Shown one piece after another: positions 7,754 to 49,537 of a stretch of 63,872 bases of DNA. Under the pieces are notes generated by a model. That model saw only the letters and a program-made list of their open reading frames with translations. It searched no databases and was not told the DNA's origin. This DNA comes from Flavobacteriales bacterium (lineage in GTDB: Bacteria > Bacteroidota > Bacteroidia > Flavobacteriales > Flavobacteriaceae). Each line of letters starts with the position of its first letter. Positions within the stretch are counted from its first letter, which is position 1. The translations under genes were made by a program, and so were the position numbers. The stretch is taken from NCBI GenBank assembly GCA_027061855.1, contig JAMOVT010000086.1, positions 1 through 63,872 of the forward strand, read 5' to 3'.

Positions 7754-8767
7754 TTAATTTTTAATTACTAAGCCTCTGGTCACAAAGGTTTTCAAATTTC
7801 CTTTTTCATCGCTGTAAATTAAAAGAGCTTTCAACTCCGGATGCTTGGAAAGTAAAGCTTTACATCCTTCCAACCCCAAAGCCATACAAGCCGTAGCATA
7901 ACCGTCGGCGGTCATACAATTGTCGGCAATAATGGTAGCGCTTAATAAATGACTGATTTCCGGATAACCTGTTTTGGAATTAATTGTATGCACATATTTC
8001 TTTCCTGTTTTCTTATCCACATAAAACTTCCTGTAATTCCCCGAAGTAGCCATTGATTTGTTTATCAACTCGATTTTTGAAAATAGTTTCTTGTCAGACT
8101 GTCTATCGGGATTATCGATAGCAACAATCCAAGGACGATTTTTTAAAGTATTTTTGCCCTTACCCAAAACCTCTCCACCTATTTCCACTAGGTAATCTTT
8201 ATAACCTCGATCGGAAAATAATTTTCCTACCCGGTCGATTGCATAGCCTTTGGCAATCGAATTATAGTCAATAAAAACTTGGGGAAATTTTTTCCTTAAA
8301 GTATCCCCTTTGTCAAGCCAAATCAAATCATATCCTACATATTTCATCAGTGAATCCACTATACTGCTATCCTTTTCTATTCCCGGAATTTTTTTCCCGG
8401 GGCCAAAACCATACGCATTCACCACAATCCCGATTGTAGGGTCATATACTCCCTCGGTTTGTTCATAAATTTTACCGGCTTCTTCATAAACTTCTTTAAA
8501 CATCTCATCCACCTTCAACTCTTCTCCTTTATTAATACGGCTGATCAATGAATTGGGACGATAAGTAGAGAGCGAAGCATTTACGGCTTCAATCACACTA
8601 TCAATGTCTTTTTCGGTAACTGGTTGTGAAATACTATCACCAAAAGCCGTGATATGATAGGTCGTCCCCAAGGCTTCTCCTTGAAAATATTGTTTTTCCG
8701 TCACTGCTTTGTGCTTGCAAGAAACAGCAAGTAAAATAAAAAGAAAAAGGAATTTAATAACTTTCAT
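7754..8767 (-). CDS. apbE: FAD:protein FMN transferase
   Basis: 337 aa lipoprotein (lipobox LAVSC, Cys17). It moves FMN from FAD onto Thr residues of exported or membrane proteins, working outside the cytoplasmic membrane. Typical motifs: FQGEALGTTYHITAFG at the N-terminus, STYRPNSLISRIN, VGIVVNAYGFGPGK-like region, DYNSIAKGYAIDRV, and MATSGNYRKFY. It lies just downstream of nqrF. NqrB and NqrC here carry the acceptor motifs, so they are its likely substrates. A terminator and a repeat separate it from nqrF, so it is probably transcribed on its own. Confidence 0.95.
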   Translation of the reverse strand: MKVIKFLFLFILLAVSCKHKAVTEKQYFQGEALGTTYHITAFGDSISQPVTEKDIDSVIEAVNASLSTYRPNSLISRINKGEELKVDEMFKEVYEEAGKIYEQTEGVYDPTIGIVVNAYGFGPGKKIPGIEKDSSIVDSLMKYVGYDLIWLDKGDTLRKKFPQVFIDYNSIAKGYAIDRVGKLFSDRGYKDYLVEIGGEVLGKGKNTLKNRPWIVAIDNPDRQSDKKLFSKIELINKSMATSGNYRKFYVDKKTGKKYVHTINSKTGYPEISHLLSATIIADNCMTADGYATACMALGLEGCKALLSKHPELKALLIYSDEKGNLKTFVTRGLVIKN

Positions 8768-8783
8768 AATGTATTTTTTTTGG

Positions 8784-8860
8784 GCGTTGCGGCTAATGGC
8801 CGCCGGGCTATCCGCTCTATCTTTTTTTGCAAAAAAGGATGCCGCTTCTATCCCTAACGC
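8784..8860. repeat. Structured dispersed repeat, copy 1
   Basis: Shares a GC-rich core with 47510-47592: GGGCTAT(T/C)CGCT, TATC, a T-run, GCAAAAAAGGATGCCGCT, CTATCCCT. The outer arms GCGTT (8784-8788) and AACGC (8856-8860) are complementary, and CTTTTTT/AAAAAAG forms an inner stem. It sits between apbE and nqrF, just upstream of the apbE start. Base composition is clearly richer in GC than the neighbouring spacer. Confidence 0.75.
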
Positions 8861-8889
8861 AAGCTGGTTTGTTATAAGTATAATCCTAT

Positions 8890-8943: not shown

Positions 8944-10251
8944 TTATCCACCAAAATCATCAAAACGAATATTTTCGGGAGGCACGCCAAGATTATCGAG
9001 CATACCTACTACCGCTTTATTCATCATTGGAGGTCCACAGAAGTAATATTCTATATCTTCGGGAGTTTCGTGCTTGCTCAAATAGTTATCATATAAAGCT
9101 TGGTGCACAAAACCTACAAAACCATCTCCGGGACAATCCAAACATTCTTTTACTTTCCAATCGTCTTCCGGACGGGGTTCGGATAAAACTAAATAGAATT
9201 TAAAATTAGGGAATTCTTTTTCCAGTTTTCTGAAATGATCCACATAGAAGAGTTCTCGTTTGCTTCGACCTCCGTACCAGTAGGAAACCTTGCGATCGGT
9301 TTTTAAGGTTTTAAATAAGTGGAACAAATGCGAGCGCATGGGAGCCATACCGGCACCTCCACCTATATAAACCATTTCGGCATCAGAATCTTCATTGATA
9401 AAGAACTCACCATAAGGGCCGGAAATTTTTACAATATCTCCCGGTTTACGTGAGAAAATATAAGAAGAAGCAACTCCGGGATTGACATCCATCCAGGTAT
9501 TTTTTTCTCTGTCCCATGGTGGTGTGGCAATACGTACATTAAGCATGATACGTCTTCCTTCGGCAGGATAACTGGCCATAGAATAAGCACGTGTAACTTC
9601 TTCATCATTTTTCATTACCAAAGGCCAAAGGTTGAATTTATCCCAATCCTCTTTAAATTTATCCGGTTCTCCGGGATGCTCTTCGGGGTGAGCAGTGATA
9701 TCAATATCTTTATAAGGCACTGTAACAGGGGGAACATCTATCTGGATATATCCTCCGGCTTTATAGTTGATATCTTCGGGGACTTCCACTACAAATTCTT
9801 TGATGAAAGAAGCCACATTGTAATTGGAAACCACCTTGGCATCCCATTTTTTTACACCGAATACTTCTTCCGGCACTTCAATCTCCATATCTTCTTTTAC
9901 CTTGACCTGACAACCCAAACGCCATCCTTCTTCTTTCTCTTTCAAAGTGAAATGCGGCTCTTCGGTAGGAAGCATATTTCCTCCTCCTTTCAACACTTTT
10001 ACTTTACATTGCAAGCAGGTTCCCCCTCCTCCACAAGCAGAAGGCAAAAATATTTTTTCATTGGACAAGGTATTGAGTAATGTGGAACCGGATTCCACTT
10101 CCACTTCTTTTTCGCCGTTAATTTTAATTTTCACCTTTCCTCCGGGCAATAATTTTGATTTGGCCCATAACAGAGCAATAACCAATATTAATACTACTAC
10201 AAGGAAAACTGCTACACTGACGATGATTACTTTTATCATTTGTTGATCCAT
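8944..10251 (-). CDS. nqrF: Na+-translocating NADH:quinone reductase subunit F
   Basis: 435 aa. NADH entry subunit: NADH to FAD to a [2Fe-2S] cluster. Seen: one N-terminal membrane helix (7-29), a ferredoxin domain with Cys73, Cys79, Cys82 and Cys114 ([12 protein letters not shown]...GCQ), the FAD-binding RAYSMAS motif, a NAD-binding [12 protein letters not shown] segment, and a C-terminal FCGPPMMN. Full length for the family. Last gene of the nqrABCDEF operon and followed by a strong terminator. Confidence 0.97.
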
Positions 10252-42335: not shown

Positions 42336-42408
42336 CACGGGCAGAGAGACTCGAACTCCCGACACCTGGTTTTGGAGACCAGTGCTCTACCAACTGAGCT
42401 ACGCCCGT
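42336..42408 (-). tRNA. trpT: tRNA-Trp (anticodon CCA)
   Basis: 73 nt without encoded CCA. Acceptor ACGGGCG/TGCCCGT, anticodon loop CTCCAAA between CTGGT and ACCAG, T-loop GTTCGAGTC. Lies between tuf and secE. Confidence 0.97.
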
Positions 42409-42415
42409 TTATAGA

Positions 42416-42448
42416 GAATTTGAAGCCTGAATATCAGACTTCAAATTC
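42416..42448 (-). other. Strong RNA hairpin between tuf and tRNA-Trp
   Basis: On the minus strand GAATTTGAAG-U-CTGA-UAU-TCAG-G-CTTCAAATTC: 10 bp, one U-G wobble, 4 bp and a 3 nt loop. On the plus strand the wobble would be an A-C mismatch, so the structure favours the sense RNA. No U tract follows; a processing site that separates tuf mRNA from the tRNA is likely. Confidence 0.65.
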
Positions 42449-42481
42449 ATCAAAATATTTCAAATCTTATAACTAATTAAA

Positions 42482-43669
42482 TTAGTCTAAAATTTCAGTG
42501 ATTTGTCCGGCACCTACTGTTCTACCACCTTCACGGATTGCAAAACGCAAACCTTTGTTGATAGCTACAGGGTAAATCAATTCAACTTCAATAGTCAAGT
42601 TATCTCCGGGCAATACCATCTCTACTCCTTCAGGTAGGTGAATTTCACCTGTAACATCTGTTGTTCTCAAATAGAATTGAGGACGATAATTGTTGTGGAA
42701 AGGAGTGTGACGACCACCTTCTTCTTTTTTCAAGATATAAACTTCCGCTTTGAATTTTCTGTGAGGAGTTATTGTACCGGGAGCAGCGATTACCATACCA
42801 CGACGGATTTGGTTTTTATCTACCCCTCTCAACAATAAACCTACATTATCACCGGCCTCTCCTCTATCAAGGATTTTACGGAACATTTCCACTCCGGTAA
42901 CAACAGAATTTAATTTTTCATCACCCAATCCGATGATTTCTACAGGATCTCCGGTATTGATAACTCCGGTTTCAATTCTACCGGTAGCAACTGTACCACG
43001 ACCTGTAATAGAGAATACATCTTCAACAGGCATCAAGAAAGGTTTTTCGGTATCTCTTTCGGGCTCAGGAATCCAGTTATCTACTGCATCCATTAATTCT
43101 TCAACAGTTTTTACCCATTTTTCTTCTCCGTTCAATGCACCTAAAGCAGATCCTTGGATAACAGGAGTGTTGTCTCCGTCATATTCATAGAAATCCAATA
43201 ATTCACGGATTTCCATTTCTACTAATTCTAATAATTCTTCATCGTCAACCATGTCCACTTTGTTCATGAATACAACAATTTTAGGCACACCTACCTGGCG
43301 AGCTAAAAGAATGTGTTCACGAGTTTGAGGCATAGGTCCGTCAGTAGCTGCCACTACTAAAATAGCACCGTCCATTTGGGCAGCACCAGTAACCATGTTT
43401 TTAACGTAATCGGCGTGACCGGGACAATCTACGTGAGCGTAGTGTCTTTTGTCAGTTTGATATTCTACGTGAGCAGTGTTAATGGTAATCCCCCTTTCTT
43501 TTTCTTCAGGAGCATTATCAATCGCTTCAAAGTCTTTTACTTCGGCAAGTCCTTTTTCTGCCAATACTTTTGTTATTGCAGCGGTCAATGTAGTTTTACC
43601 ATGATCCACGTGACCAATGGTACCTATATTAACGTGCGGTTTGGTTCTTTCGAATTTTTCTTTAGCCAT
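42482..43669 (-). CDS. tuf: Elongation factor Tu
   Basis: 395 aa. GTP-binding motifs [32 protein letters not shown] and the C-terminal domain ending [13 protein letters not shown]. Delivers aminoacyl-tRNA to the ribosome. Preceded by four tRNA genes and followed by tRNA-Trp; the only tuf copy in this window. Confidence 0.99.
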
Positions 43670-43714
43670 AATACTAATTTTTATCTATTTATTTTCTAAT
43701 ATAAGACTCCTTTG

Positions 43715-43786
43715 AGCCAATGACGGGATTTGAACCCGTGACCTCTTCCTTACCAAGGAAGCGCTCTACCCCTGAGCTACATCGGC
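43715..43786 (-). tRNA. thrT: tRNA-Thr (anticodon GGT)
   Basis: Acceptor GCCGATG/CATTGGC, anticodon loop TTGGTAA between CTTCC and GGAAG. 45 nt upstream of the tuf ATG. Confidence 0.96.
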
Positions 43787-43795
43787 CTTGAGTAG

Positions 43796-43868
43796 AGCGG
43801 GAGACGGGACTCGAACCCGCGACATTCAGCTTGGAAGGCTGATGCTCTACCAACTGAGCTACTCCCGC
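43796..43868 (-). tRNA. glyT: tRNA-Gly (anticodon TCC)
   Basis: Acceptor GCGGGAG/CTCCCGC, anticodon loop CTTCCAA between TCAGC and GCTGA. Only 9 nt from tRNA-Thr(GGT). Confidence 0.96.
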
Positions 43869-43905
43869 TTATTGCTCTCCCCTTTAAGAAAAGAGCTGAT
43901 TTTTG

Positions 43906-43986
<81 letters not shown>

Positions 43987-44009
43987 AAATCATTTTCAGT
44001 CTGTCAAAG

Positions 44010-44083
44010 AGCCGATGGAGGGACTCGAACCCACGACCTGCTGATTACAAATCAGCTGCTCTAGCCAGCTGAGCTACATCGGC
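44010..44083 (-). tRNA. thrU: tRNA-Thr (anticodon TGT)
   Basis: Acceptor GCCGATG/CATCGGC, anticodon loop TTTGTAA between GCTGA and TCAGC. First gene after the promoter at 44102-44132. Confidence 0.96.
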
Positions 44084-46281: not shown

Positions 46282-47424
46282 TTAATCTTTTAATATGTTT
46301 CTTGAAATAACGAGTTTTTGTATTTCGGTAGTTCCCTCTCCGATGGTGGTCAATTTACTGTCGCGATAAAATTTCTCAACCGGAAAATCTTTGGTGTATC
46401 CGTATCCGCCAAAAATTTGGACCGCTTCATTTGCTATGCGCACACTCGCCTCCGAAGCATACATTTTTGCCATGGCTCCCAGTTTGGTCAAGTTTTGCTT
46501 GGTATCTTTCAAATAGGCGGCTTTTCTCAGTAATAATTCAGAGGCTTCTATTTCGGTAGCCATATCGGCCAATTTAAATGCGATGGCTTGGAATTGACTG
46601 ATGGGGCGTCCGAATTGTTCACGCTCTTTTGAGTATTTCAATGCCGCTTGATAAGCACCCTTAGCGATCCCCAGCGCATTAGATCCGATGGAAATTCTCC
46701 CACCATCCAAAATCTTTAAAGCCTGTACAAAACCATCTCCTACTTCTCCCAGTATATTTTCCTTGGGGATGCGGCAATTATCAAAAACCATTTCGGCGGT
46801 TTCACTTGCTCGCATACCCAATTTATTTTCTTTTTTTCCGGCACTAAATCCCGGTGTTCCTCTCTCCACTACAAAGGCGGTTGCATTACGTCGCGCCCCT
46901 TTTTCTCCGGTCCTGGCCAAAACAACAGCCACATCTCCTGTTTTTCCGTGCGTAATGAAATTTTTAGCTCCGTTCAAAACATAATAATCGCCGTCTTTCA
47001 CAGCTGTCGTGCTCATACTTCCCGCATCCGATCCCGTATTATGTTCTGTTAATCCCCAAGCACCAATCCATTCTCCCGTGGCTAATTTTGGCAACCATTT
47101 TCGACGTTGTTCTTCATTGCCAAACTCATAAATATGATTGGTACATAAAGAATTATGTGCGGCAACCGATAAGCCTATCGACGGATCCATTTGTGACAAT
47201 TCGTCTATAATCGTGACATAATCCTGGTAAGACAATCCCGATCCACCATATTCCTCGGGAATAATAATCCCCATAAAACCCAATTCTCCTAATTTTTTTA
47301 AAACATCAACGGGAAAGATTTGTTTTTCGTCCCATTCCATATAATAGGGCTCTATATATTGCTTGTTAAAATCGCGAACGGCTTGCGCTATGTGTTGTTG
47401 TTCTTCTGTCAACTCAAAATTCAT
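46282..47424 (-). CDS. Acyl-CoA dehydrogenase
   Basis: 380 aa. MNFELTEEQQHIAQAVRDF, the FAD-binding WGLTEHNTGSDAGSM and ITHGKTGDVAVVLART segments, the catalytic Glu region (QIFGGYGYTKDFPVEKFYRDSKLTTIGEGTTEIQK) and correct length. Oxidises short-chain or branched acyl-CoA in the cytosol, passing electrons to ETF. Good promoter at 47442-47471. Confidence 0.95.
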   Translation of the reverse strand: MNFELTEEQQHIAQAVRDFNKQYIEPYYMEWDEKQIFPVDVLKKLGELGFMGIIIPEEYGGSGLSYQDYVTIIDELSQMDPSIGLSVAAHNSLCTNHIYEFGNEEQRRKWLPKLATGEWIGAWGLTEHNTGSDAGSMSTTAVKDGDYYVLNGAKNFITHGKTGDVAVVLARTGEKGARRNATAFVVERGTPGFSAGKKENKLGMRASETAEMVFDNCRIPKENILGEVGDGFVQALKILDGGRISIGSNALGIAKGAYQAALKYSKEREQFGRPISQFQAIAFKLADMATEIEASELLLRKAAYLKDTKQNLTKLGAMAKMYASEASVRIANEAVQIFGGYGYTKDFPVEKFYRDSKLTTIGEGTTEIQKLVISRNILKD

Positions 47425-47471: not shown

Positions 47472-47761
47472 ACCGGTCACAATAATACATATCAAAATAT
47501 TTTGTAAGGGCCTCTCCCTTCGCATACTCGGGCCGGGCTATTCGCTATATCTTTTTTTTTGCAAAAAAGGATGCCGCTACTATCCCTGAGGCGAATTAGA
47601 AGAATAATAGAAAGTTACCACTGCAAGTGGCTAAAAAATTATAGAAATTTAATTTTCTTAATGCCTTAATGGTTCAAGAAGAAAAAAAGACTTTCCCTTA
47701 TATTTAAAAGAAGTTCTATTTACTTAAATAAAGTTTGTTTAAGCCAATCTAAAAATCAGCT
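47472..47761. other. Gene-free spacer between typA and the acyl-CoA dehydrogenase
   Basis: Together with the promoter this makes a 337 nt gap. It holds repeat copy 2 (47510-47592). The rest is AT-rich, with only a weak CTTAAA/TTTAAG repeat near the typA end. I see no gene, and no convincing typA terminator. Confidence 0.6.
47510..47592. repeat. Structured dispersed repeat, copy 2
   Basis: Shares the core with copy 1 (8784-8860), including the identical blocks GCAAAAAAGGATGCCGCT and CTATCCCT. Its outer arms are GCCTC (47510-47514) and GAGGC (47588-47592), different from the GCGTT/AACGC of copy 1 but equally complementary. Confidence 0.75.
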
Positions 47762-49537
47762 TTACGCTCTGAAATTAATCTTACGCATACGTAAACTTTC
47801 GGGAGTAATTTCCAAATATTCATCATCCCGGATGTACTCCATCGCTTCTTCCAAAGAAAATTTTACTTTGGGAGCGATTTTCATACTTTCATCGGTACCG
47901 GAAGCACGCATATTGGTAATTTTTTTTCCTTTGGTCAAATTGGCCGTGATATCTTTATCCCGGGTATGCTCGCCAACTACCTGTCCTACATATACTTCCT
48001 CTCCGGGCTCAACAAAAAATCTTCCTCTGTCTTGCAAACGATCCAGTGAATAGGCAGATACTTTCCCCGCATCCATAGAAACGATAGCTCCCTTATTTCG
48101 TTCGGGAATGTCTCCTTTGTAGGGAGCGTATTCACGAAAACGGTGATTCATTACGGCAGTTCCGGCAGTAGCAGTCAAAATACTGTTTCTCAACCCGATT
48201 AATCCTCTGGAAGTAATATCAAATTCAAGATGCATTACATCTCCTTTGGGCTCCATTACCAATAAATCTCCTTTTCTTCCGGAAACCAATTCGATAACTT
48301 TTCCGCTGTATTCCTCAGGCACATCAATAACCAAGGTTTCGTAGGGCTCATGTTTTTTTCCGTCGATTTCTTTATATAATACTTGCGGTTTTCCCACTTG
48401 CAATTCATAACCTTCACGACGCATCGTTTCAATCAAAACGGATAAATGCAAAATTCCACGACCGAATACATTAAATTTATCTTCGGTATCGGTAGGCTCT
48501 ACACGCAAAGCCAGGTTTTTTTCCGTTTCTTTCATCAAACGGTCTCTCAAGTGGCGGGAAGTAACAAATTTTCCTTCTTTTCCGAAAAAAGGCGAATTAT
48601 TAATGGTAAAAAGCATACTCATTGTCGGCTCGTCAATGGCTATTCTTTCTAAAGCTTCGGGATGCTCGGCATCGGCAATGGTATCTCCGATTTCAAAGTT
48701 ATCCATTCCTACAATAGCGCAAATATCACCGCTTCTCACTTCGGTTACTTTTTCCTTTCCCAATCCCGTAAAAACATATAATTCTTTTACTCTGGATTTT
48801 TTTGGCTCTCCTTCTTTTCTTAATAACAGCACTTCTTCTCCTTGATGTATGGTTCCTCTGAATACACGTCCTATAGCTATCCTTCCCACAAAATTTGAAT
48901 AATCCAATGAAGTGATTTGCATTTGCAAAGGTCCTTCAAAATGTGGAGCTTCGGGAATGTGTTCCAAAATAGTATCCAATAAAGGAGCAACGGTTCCTGT
49001 GGGCTCTGTCCAGCCTTCGGTGCTCATCCAACCTTGTTTGGCCGAACCGTAAACCGTAGGAAAATCCAATTGGTCTTCGGTAGCTCCCAGGTTATACATT
49101 AAATCAAATATTTGTTCTTGCACCTCATCGGGTTTGCAATTTTCTTTATCCACTTTATTGATTACTACAATCGGTTTCAATCCGAGCGAAATCGCTTTTC
49201 CCAACACAAAACGTGTTTGGGGCATAGCTCCTTCAAAAGCATCTACGAGCAACAATACTCCGTCGGCCATTTTTAAAACTCGTTCTACTTCTCCACCGAA
49301 ATCGGCGTGACCGGGAGTGTCTATGATATTAATTTTTATATCTTTATATTCTACCGATACATTTTTGGAGAGAATGGTAATTCCTCTTTCTCTTTCAAGG
49401 TCATTACTGTCCAGCAATAAATCTTTGTGTTCTTTTCTTTCATCGAGCAGGTTACTCTCTTGTATTATTTTGTCCACCAAGGTTGTTTTTCCGTGGTCAA
49501 CGTGAGCAATAATTGCAATGTTTCTAATGGATTTCAT
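47762..49537 (-). CDS. typA: Translational GTPase TypA/BipA
   Basis: 591 aa. G motifs [32 protein letters not shown] and NKVDKENC, then EF-G-like domains and the BipA-specific C-terminus ending MRKINFRA. Acts on ribosome assembly and translation under stress, notably cold. The leader carries an 8 bp hairpin (49558-49584). Confidence 0.97.
   Translation of the reverse strand: MKSIRNIAIIAHVDHGKTTLVDKIIQESNLLDERKEHKDLLLDSNDLERERGITILSKNVSVEYKDIKINIIDTPGHADFGGEVERVLKMADGVLLLVDAFEGAMPQTRFVLGKAISLGLKPIVVINKVDKENCKPDEVQEQIFDLMYNLGATEDQLDFPTVYGSAKQGWMSTEGWTEPTGTVAPLLDTILEHIPEAPHFEGPLQMQITSLDYSNFVGRIAIGRVFRGTIHQGEEVLLLRKEGEPKKSRVKELYVFTGLGKEKVTEVRSGDICAIVGMDNFEIGDTIADAEHPEALERIAIDEPTMSMLFTINNSPFFGKEGKFVTSRHLRDRLMKETEKNLALRVEPTDTEDKFNVFGRGILHLSVLIETMRREGYELQVGKPQVLYKEIDGKKHEPYETLVIDVPEEYSGKVIELVSGRKGDLLVMEPKGDVMHLEFDITSRGLIGLRNSILTATAGTAVMNHRFREYAPYKGDIPERNKGAIVSMDAGKVSAYSLDRLQDRGRFFVEPGEEVYVGQVVGEHTRDKDITANLTKGKKITNMRASGTDESMKIAPKVKFSLEEAMEYIRDDEYLEITPESLRMRKINFRA

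Follow-up and report, generated by a model that had tools for sequence, protein, structure and literature searches.

Flavo-1 as part of a modular, folded and probably mobile element of flavobacteria

Flavo-1 (RF01705) was named by Weinberg et al. 2010, who list it as probably RNA and probably not cis-regulatory (PMC2864571), and in a 2022 review it ranks with the most abundant families of small RNA (PMC9029176). In the transcriptome of Flavobacterium psychrophilum, Flavo-1 hits seemingly occur in sense and antisense indistinctly and many fall outside transcribed regions; several transcript 5' regions nevertheless coincide with hits (PMC9723704). The accessible portions of the literature on Flavo-1, these three papers included, give no function for the family, and the accessible open-licence texts hold no statement that it is mobile or modular. 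The initial annotation of the locus studied here mentioned similar cores in other Flavobacteriia without a described function, which agrees with those portions, but the family itself already carried a name.

Two kinds of small mobile sequence invite comparison. Like REP/REPIN sequences with their TnpA_REP (RAYT) transposases, Flavo-1 is small, folded, intergenic, strand-specific and present in high copy number; unlike them, it has no GT[AG]G foot, appears to form a three-way junction (in one of its two frames, frame B), carries an exchangeable module and has no linked Y1 gene that we could find. No REP family is known to us whose inner part is swapped while its frame is retained. With MITEs it shares a short, non-autonomous format, imperfect terminal inverted repeats (its P1 arms) and dispersal as a unit, and it differs from them by the lack of a target-site duplication, by selection on the internal fold and by the lack of any parent transposon found. 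Integron attC sites are presumably also alike in their single-strand fold, conserved base and variable tip. In Bacteroidetes, where RAYT subclass 2.6 is mostly found, the transposase genes are flanked by "atypical" structures that lack GT[AG]G and have copies elsewhere in the genome, according to the accessible part of the source (PMC6006769).

The window copies and the complete unit

The window, that is the whole stretch of 63,872 nucleotides from a Flavobacteriales bacterium, holds two copies of a dispersed repeat. On re-reading, both were found where the initial annotation had put them (8784-8860 and 47510-47592), with the shared blocks GCAAAAAAGGATGCCGCT and CTATCCCT identical between them and with complementary outer arms in each (GCGTT/AACGC in copy 1, GCCTC/GAGGC in copy 2). 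What had been counted as four of five arm bases changed is actually two of five base pairs, both of them double changes, hence four of ten bases. Both copies match RF01705 on the minus strand above its curated cut-off of 42 bits, so the pair is not a chance resemblance. All four genes bordering the copies also lie on the minus strand. In the following list, P1 is the outer stem, P2 the hairpin paired by Rfam and P3 a second small hairpin.

7754..8767, minus strand: ApbE family gene (PF02424), downstream of copy 1
8782..8860, minus strand: copy 1, complete unit in frame B with module 1, spanning the P1 5' arm to the CC that follows the P1 3' arm
8784..8788, minus strand: copy 1, P1 3' arm, AACGC on the minus strand (sequence, covariation)
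8789..8803, minus strand: copy 1, predicted P3, second hairpin GCGGC...GCCGC (sequence)
8797..8869, minus strand: copy 1, Rfam Flavo-1 match covering the P2 hairpin with its flanks (45.5 bits, E 1.4e-6)
8856..8860, minus strand: copy 1, P1 5' arm, GCGTT on the minus strand (sequence, covariation)
8944..10251, minus strand: 2Fe-2S / NAD-binding oxidoreductase gene (PF00175, PF00111), which we take to be NqrF(-like), upstream of copy 1 in the sense of transcription
46282..47424, minus strand: acyl-CoA dehydrogenase gene, downstream of copy 2
47508..47592, minus strand: copy 2, complete unit in frame B with module 1, spanning the P1 5' arm to the CC that follows the P1 3' arm
47510..47514, minus strand: copy 2, P1 3' arm, GAGGC on the minus strand (sequence)
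47527..47597, minus strand: copy 2, Rfam Flavo-1 match (53 bits, E 1.2e-8)
47588..47592, minus strand: copy 2, P1 5' arm, GCCTC on the minus strand (sequence)
47762..49537, minus strand: TypA/BipA GTPase gene (typA; PF00009, PF21018), upstream of copy 2

Elsewhere in the window, five tRNA genes are clustered on the minus strand (42336-44083).

A covariance-model scan of the source genome found six Flavo-1 copies, all six over the cut-off. By eye, all six have complementary arms directly outside the hairpin paired by Rfam (GCGTT/AACGC in three, GCGTG/CACGC in two and GCCTC/GAGGC in one) and share one order on the Rfam strand: P1 arm, ~GGGATNG...AGCGGCATCC..tip..GATATAGCGGATAGCCC (P2), P3, complementary P1 arm and CC. 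The Rfam model pairs P2 only and leaves P1 and P3 unpaired. As we read the aligned copies, P1 and P3 would close a three-way junction in frame B, P3 being variable or missing in other copies. A hammerhead-like and an attC-like arrangement were considered for the junction, but neither agrees with the order of its boxes. The family is found well beyond this genome, with a match in 23 of 40 relatives and in 57 of 395 genomes of a phylum-wide sample in which up to 11 candidates were scored per genome.

Pairing of P1 was assessed in frame-B copies picked by P2 alone, the five bases in front being sought as a reverse complement within 120 bases behind. Arm changes do not break the pairing as often as they keep it, since P1 pairs exactly in 53 of 62 copies. 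Among arms other than GCGTT, 21 of 26 pair, a number reached by none of 10,000 tail swaps (mean 4.67, maximum 12); in a looser version, 25 of 38 pair against 7.4 expected. Inspected by eye, the nine misses comprise three G.U, two A.C, two other changes and two mis-sorted frame-A copies (L181 and L214), which were kept in the count and belong to the five non-GCGTT misses. The stem of the Rfam model is likewise conserved as a pairing, with 98.9% of cells paired over 55 distinct frame-B rows and a covariation score of 0.380; shuffled rows score 0.148 (sd 0.013), with 0 of 500 reaching the observed value, and slid controls score at most 0.175. Pairs with two-sided change numbered 5 against 3.8, a level reached by 91 of 500 shuffles, and altogether the stem stands out clearly on three of five measures. 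Folding the copies singly gave nothing unusual on either strand (z 0.09 to 0.30), and the case therefore rests on comparison.

The strand that is folded can be approached from wobble pairs, given that a pairing kept as G.U on one strand reads A.C on its complement. On the Rfam strand, the six P2 pairs hold 20 G.U and no A.C and the tip stem 7 G.U and no A.C over 131 copies (69 frame A, 62 frame B), counts that come from non-independent copies, many of them gathered through the Rfam model, which itself favours G.U over A.C. In a model-free sample of 141 copies, where the search string dictated one side and the two kinds had unequal opportunity, the counts were 6 G.U, 1 A.C and 11 other mismatches. 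Based on these counts, the fold of one strand, the Rfam strand, appears to be selected, a result compatible with RNA as well as with single-stranded DNA. Covariation in P1 and in the Rfam stem, together with G.U without A.C in P2, thus strongly supports the initial proposal of compensatory change and selection on a hairpin. The accompanying statement that this is "not just copying" stands for the hairpin, which is selected, but the family is also copied and dispersed.

Frames and exchangeable modules

Comparison of the copies shows an element built from a frame and an inserted module, of which Rfam Flavo-1 covers just a part; this view is new here. Frame B, the type found in the window, reads ~GCGTTA(A/G)GGATNG [module] N'AGCC(C/T)GACC..GGTAACGCC, and frame A reads ~TAGCCCCGATNG [module] N'AGCGGGAWWAGCT. 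Module 1 is the Rfam core, so that the window copies and their P2 core correspond to RF01705, whereas P1, P3, the two frames and modules 2 to 4 fall outside its model. Module 2 (AGGCATTTGTTGGAGCTCCTCGCAGAGAGCGACTGCC) is quite unlike module 1, module 3 is defined from few copies and module 4 is a CTACCNTGTAG hairpin. A locus scan found each of modules 1 to 4 in both frames (72, 5, 1 and 4 in frame A; 57, 18, 1 and 4 in frame B).

The module-2 pattern has 74 matches in 17 of 32 genomes, against 2 for a reversed control, and occurs in both frames; among 30 of its loci that were inspected, L270, L275 and L288 are not element-like and L266 and L281 were misplaced by the script. Module 4 is dispersed in a pattern specific to the genome: G584 and G621 have 39 matches each, G763 has 19 and G689 has 18, 15 of 30 genomes have no match, and the reversed control has none. 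A loose frame scan additionally gave 41 cases classed as "B other" and 10 as "A other"; those inspected were chance or damaged matches, and none was counted as a module.

Three spacers were followed across relatives, 30 loci each. Between sufD and sufS, judged by eye, frame A carries module 1 in six loci and module 2 in six others, with no Rfam match in the latter six, and 18 loci are frameless; in one of these, just 6 bases, counting the stop codon, precede sufS. Between an exonuclease gene and miaA, in loci from one large genus that is probably Flavobacterium, frame A was seen by eye in 21 loci (module 1 or a near variant in 17, module 4 in two, module 3 in two), was absent from eight and was unclear in one. 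Between genes for an M20 peptidase and an argH-like protein, the frame is present in 17 loci, truncated in one and undetermined in one. These comparisons show that a frame can persist at a site while its module differs among relatives, which is also new here.

Several further observations concern the interior of the element. At one orthologous site (L199-L208), the distal tip stem is wholly different between species (ATTTTTT.., GTGCCG../..CGGCAC and CCTGGC../..GCCAG), as if exchanged with other copies. A GCGACC..GGA(A)GC stretch reminiscent of module 2 lies within long module-3-like inserts in L290, L292 and L305, and modules may for this reason nest or recombine. Other dispersed palindromes (CCTGAGC..GTCGAAGG and ACGAAGTTCACTGAACTCC) lie in element loops or directly adjoin elements, in spacers L208, L212, L201, L205 and L172 and in L299 and L303.

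Dispersal, ends and empty sites

Dispersal was best seen in uncultured Aquimarina sp. 821-3Z (as recorded), a genome met through an exact 28-base pattern in named genomes, where it accounts for many rows among the matches listed. Sixty stretches of 20 kb, together 1.2 Mb, contain 125 copies with frame B and module 1; extrapolated to 4.8 Mb, this gives an estimated ~500. In 38 copies with both ends, the flanks differ and similarity drops outside the P1 arm and outside the CC behind the P1 3' arm, part of both ends being fixed by the search strings; the unit from the P1 5' arm to CC is scattered over unrelated sites within a single genome. Its ends are not fully abrupt: position -1 is T in 31 and C in 7 of the 38, and A/T is preferred in the four bases that follow the unit. 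Over all 125 copies, the two bases before P1 are TT in 66, CT in 21, AT in 17, CC in 13, TC in 7 and GC in 1. No target-site duplication was seen, direct repeats of at least 2 bases at the joint occurring in 4 of 38 copies versus 2.5 with shuffled tails. Three 821-3Z copies at different places share one ~163-base tip extension. When copies from several genomes were compared, 49 of 93 had their nearest relative within their own genome, against a mean of 9.2 and a maximum of 23 under label shuffles.

A congener of the source organism keeps the gene order at both window sites and has no Flavo-1 match there, and some sites are filled across genera. No filled/empty pair at base resolution was obtained at the argH-like site, the exonuclease-miaA site or one 821-3Z site, the flanks being too diverged; at the 821-3Z site, the best relative is 76% identical and the two genes are non-adjacent. 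An all-against-all comparison of 119 loci led to 12 inspected pairs, six of them filled in both genomes at an identical position and none filled/empty. A 71-base query from copy 2 met nothing similar in 72,556 plasmid and 50,697 phage records.

Two side observations may be added. In G036, an order-level relative, a larger repeated unit, several hundred bases long, has the element at one end in six of seven copies (L062-L068) and another palindrome (TATAAACACACC..GGTGTGTTTATA) at its far end; all seven are antisense to the gene on that side. A viral contig (IMGVR_UViG_3300032087_005707, L458) has an exact match to the module-1 core pattern.

Placement among genes, candidate movers and competing readings

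On balance, we consider Flavo-1 to be probably a non-autonomous mobile element of ~90 bases that is recognised as a folded strand by a trans-acting enzyme. Such an enzyme would act in trans on the Rfam strand in its folded form, which would most likely be single-stranded DNA, would recognise it through the base of the fold (P1, purine mismatches and P3), and would excise or copy the element and insert it into intergenic DNA. Copies landing between divergent genes, that is in promoter regions, would later be lost, and those between tandem or convergent genes would persist, some until common to genera; some of these old copies may perhaps serve the host as spacer hairpins. Selection acting after insertion would deplete divergent gaps, and in matched loci 7 of 83 copies lie in such gaps against 42 of 135 control gaps (p 9e-5). 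No such depletion is seen in 821-3Z, where 23 of 115 copies lie in divergent gaps against 84 of 374 (p 0.61), and convergent gaps are overrepresented there, with 27 of 115 copies against 44 of 374 (p 0.004). Conservation of some sites across genera, which pure parasites would not need, counts against the mobile reading. No mobilising gene was identified, and scans that allowed up to ~420 bases inside a frame and covered part of each genome met no frame with a gene inside.

The rarity of copies between divergent genes would equally suit a structure acting in cis on mRNA between genes, through stability, processing or translation, as would the repeated occupation of compact spacers (sufD-sufS 12 of 30, exonuclease-miaA 21 of 30, M20 peptidase-argH-like 17 of 30). 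These same three spacers are, however, frameless in relatives, and at all three, which are frame-A sites, the strand with conserved pairing is not the mRNA strand. In tandem gaps, frame A is found 6 times in sense and 18 times in antisense (p 0.02) and frame B 17 times in each, so that frame B has no sense preference; these counts refer to 83 placed copies (10 of 93 were unplaced), and a count with shorter genes gave a like picture. The antisense preference of frame A and the convergent excess in 821-3Z indicate that copies are not placed simply at random, which also counts against the mobile reading. The Bacteroidetes -7 promoter motif TAnnTTTG shows no excess upstream of the copies (frame A 6 vs 4, 3 and 8 in controls; frame B 6 vs 7, 8 and 2), and this together with the sense parity of frame B misfits both an mRNA element in the Rfam sense and independent small RNA genes. 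We therefore hold the cis-acting reading to be unlikely.

If the element is mobile, as we favour, its mover could be a Y1 (HUH) REP transposase (RAYT) of the Bacteroidetes subclass 2.6, Flavo-1 then being a REP-type element with one of the "atypical" structures. The strand-specific fold, the intergenic location, the lack of target duplication and the high copy number are all REP-like, and a Y1 match is commoner in genomes with Flavo-1 (12 of 23) than in those without (1 of 17, p 0.002). This association is gone among genomes of at least 2.8 Mb (11 of 21 vs 1 of 4, p 0.59), in which copy number is also unrelated to Y1 number (Spearman 0.07). PF01797 has a match in six and none in the other six of the 12 genomes with at least five Flavo-1 matches; those without one are G000 (6 Flavo-1 matches), G004 (5), G005 (24; this genome is only 80% complete), G007 (13), G019 (22) and G025 (14). 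Among 30 Y1 loci, the 20 scanned held no Flavo-1 match over the cut-off, and the five genes resembling subclass 2.6 were seen by eye to be adjoined by other palindromes. A home-made Y1 profile found three of three controls and nothing in the 1.2 Mb plus 8-kb loci of 821-3Z, which are a minority of its ~4.8 Mb genome. A GT[AG]G 5' foot beside the hairpin was not seen in the 125 copies, a foot that subclass 2.6 is said to lack as well (PMC6006769, accessible part). Weighing these points, we regard a Y1 mover of this type as distinctly improbable. The five subclass-2.6-like Y1 genes (L135, L139, L140, L141 and L142) have palindromes of their own at their sides, such as GCTGCCGCGCGATT..AATCGCGCGGCAGC in L139; the Y1 gene of L142 reads MSRKYKFHNPEG...YIHQNP.

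A SINE-like route, in which the Rfam strand is transcribed, folded and inserted by a trans-acting reverse transcriptase, would account for the same strand counts and for a fold with G.U pairs and purine mismatches; the lack of promoter-motif excess upstream speaks against it, and it too seems quite unlikely to us. A family of trans-acting small RNA genes, as implied by the Rfam type of RF01705 ("Gene; sRNA") and by the 2010 listing as probably RNA and probably not cis-regulatory (PMC2864571, accessible part), is very unlikely in view of the estimated ~500 copies in one genome, the absence of promoter-motif excess and the F. psychrophilum hits, which have no consistent sense and are in many cases untranscribed (PMC9723704, accessible part).

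Returning to the mobile element that we favour, we tentatively raise the possibility, without thinking it the likelier outcome, that it represents a new class with a fixed frame and swappable modules, served by an enzyme unrelated to REP transposases and able to have its resident module replaced in place, Flavo-1 being one such module. If Flavo-1 is a mobile folded element, counts of it as an abundant small RNA and searches for its targets would be misdirected. Knowing where the complete unit begins and ends, which strand folds and that the 821-3Z genome is rich in copies would together open a direct route to the enzyme.
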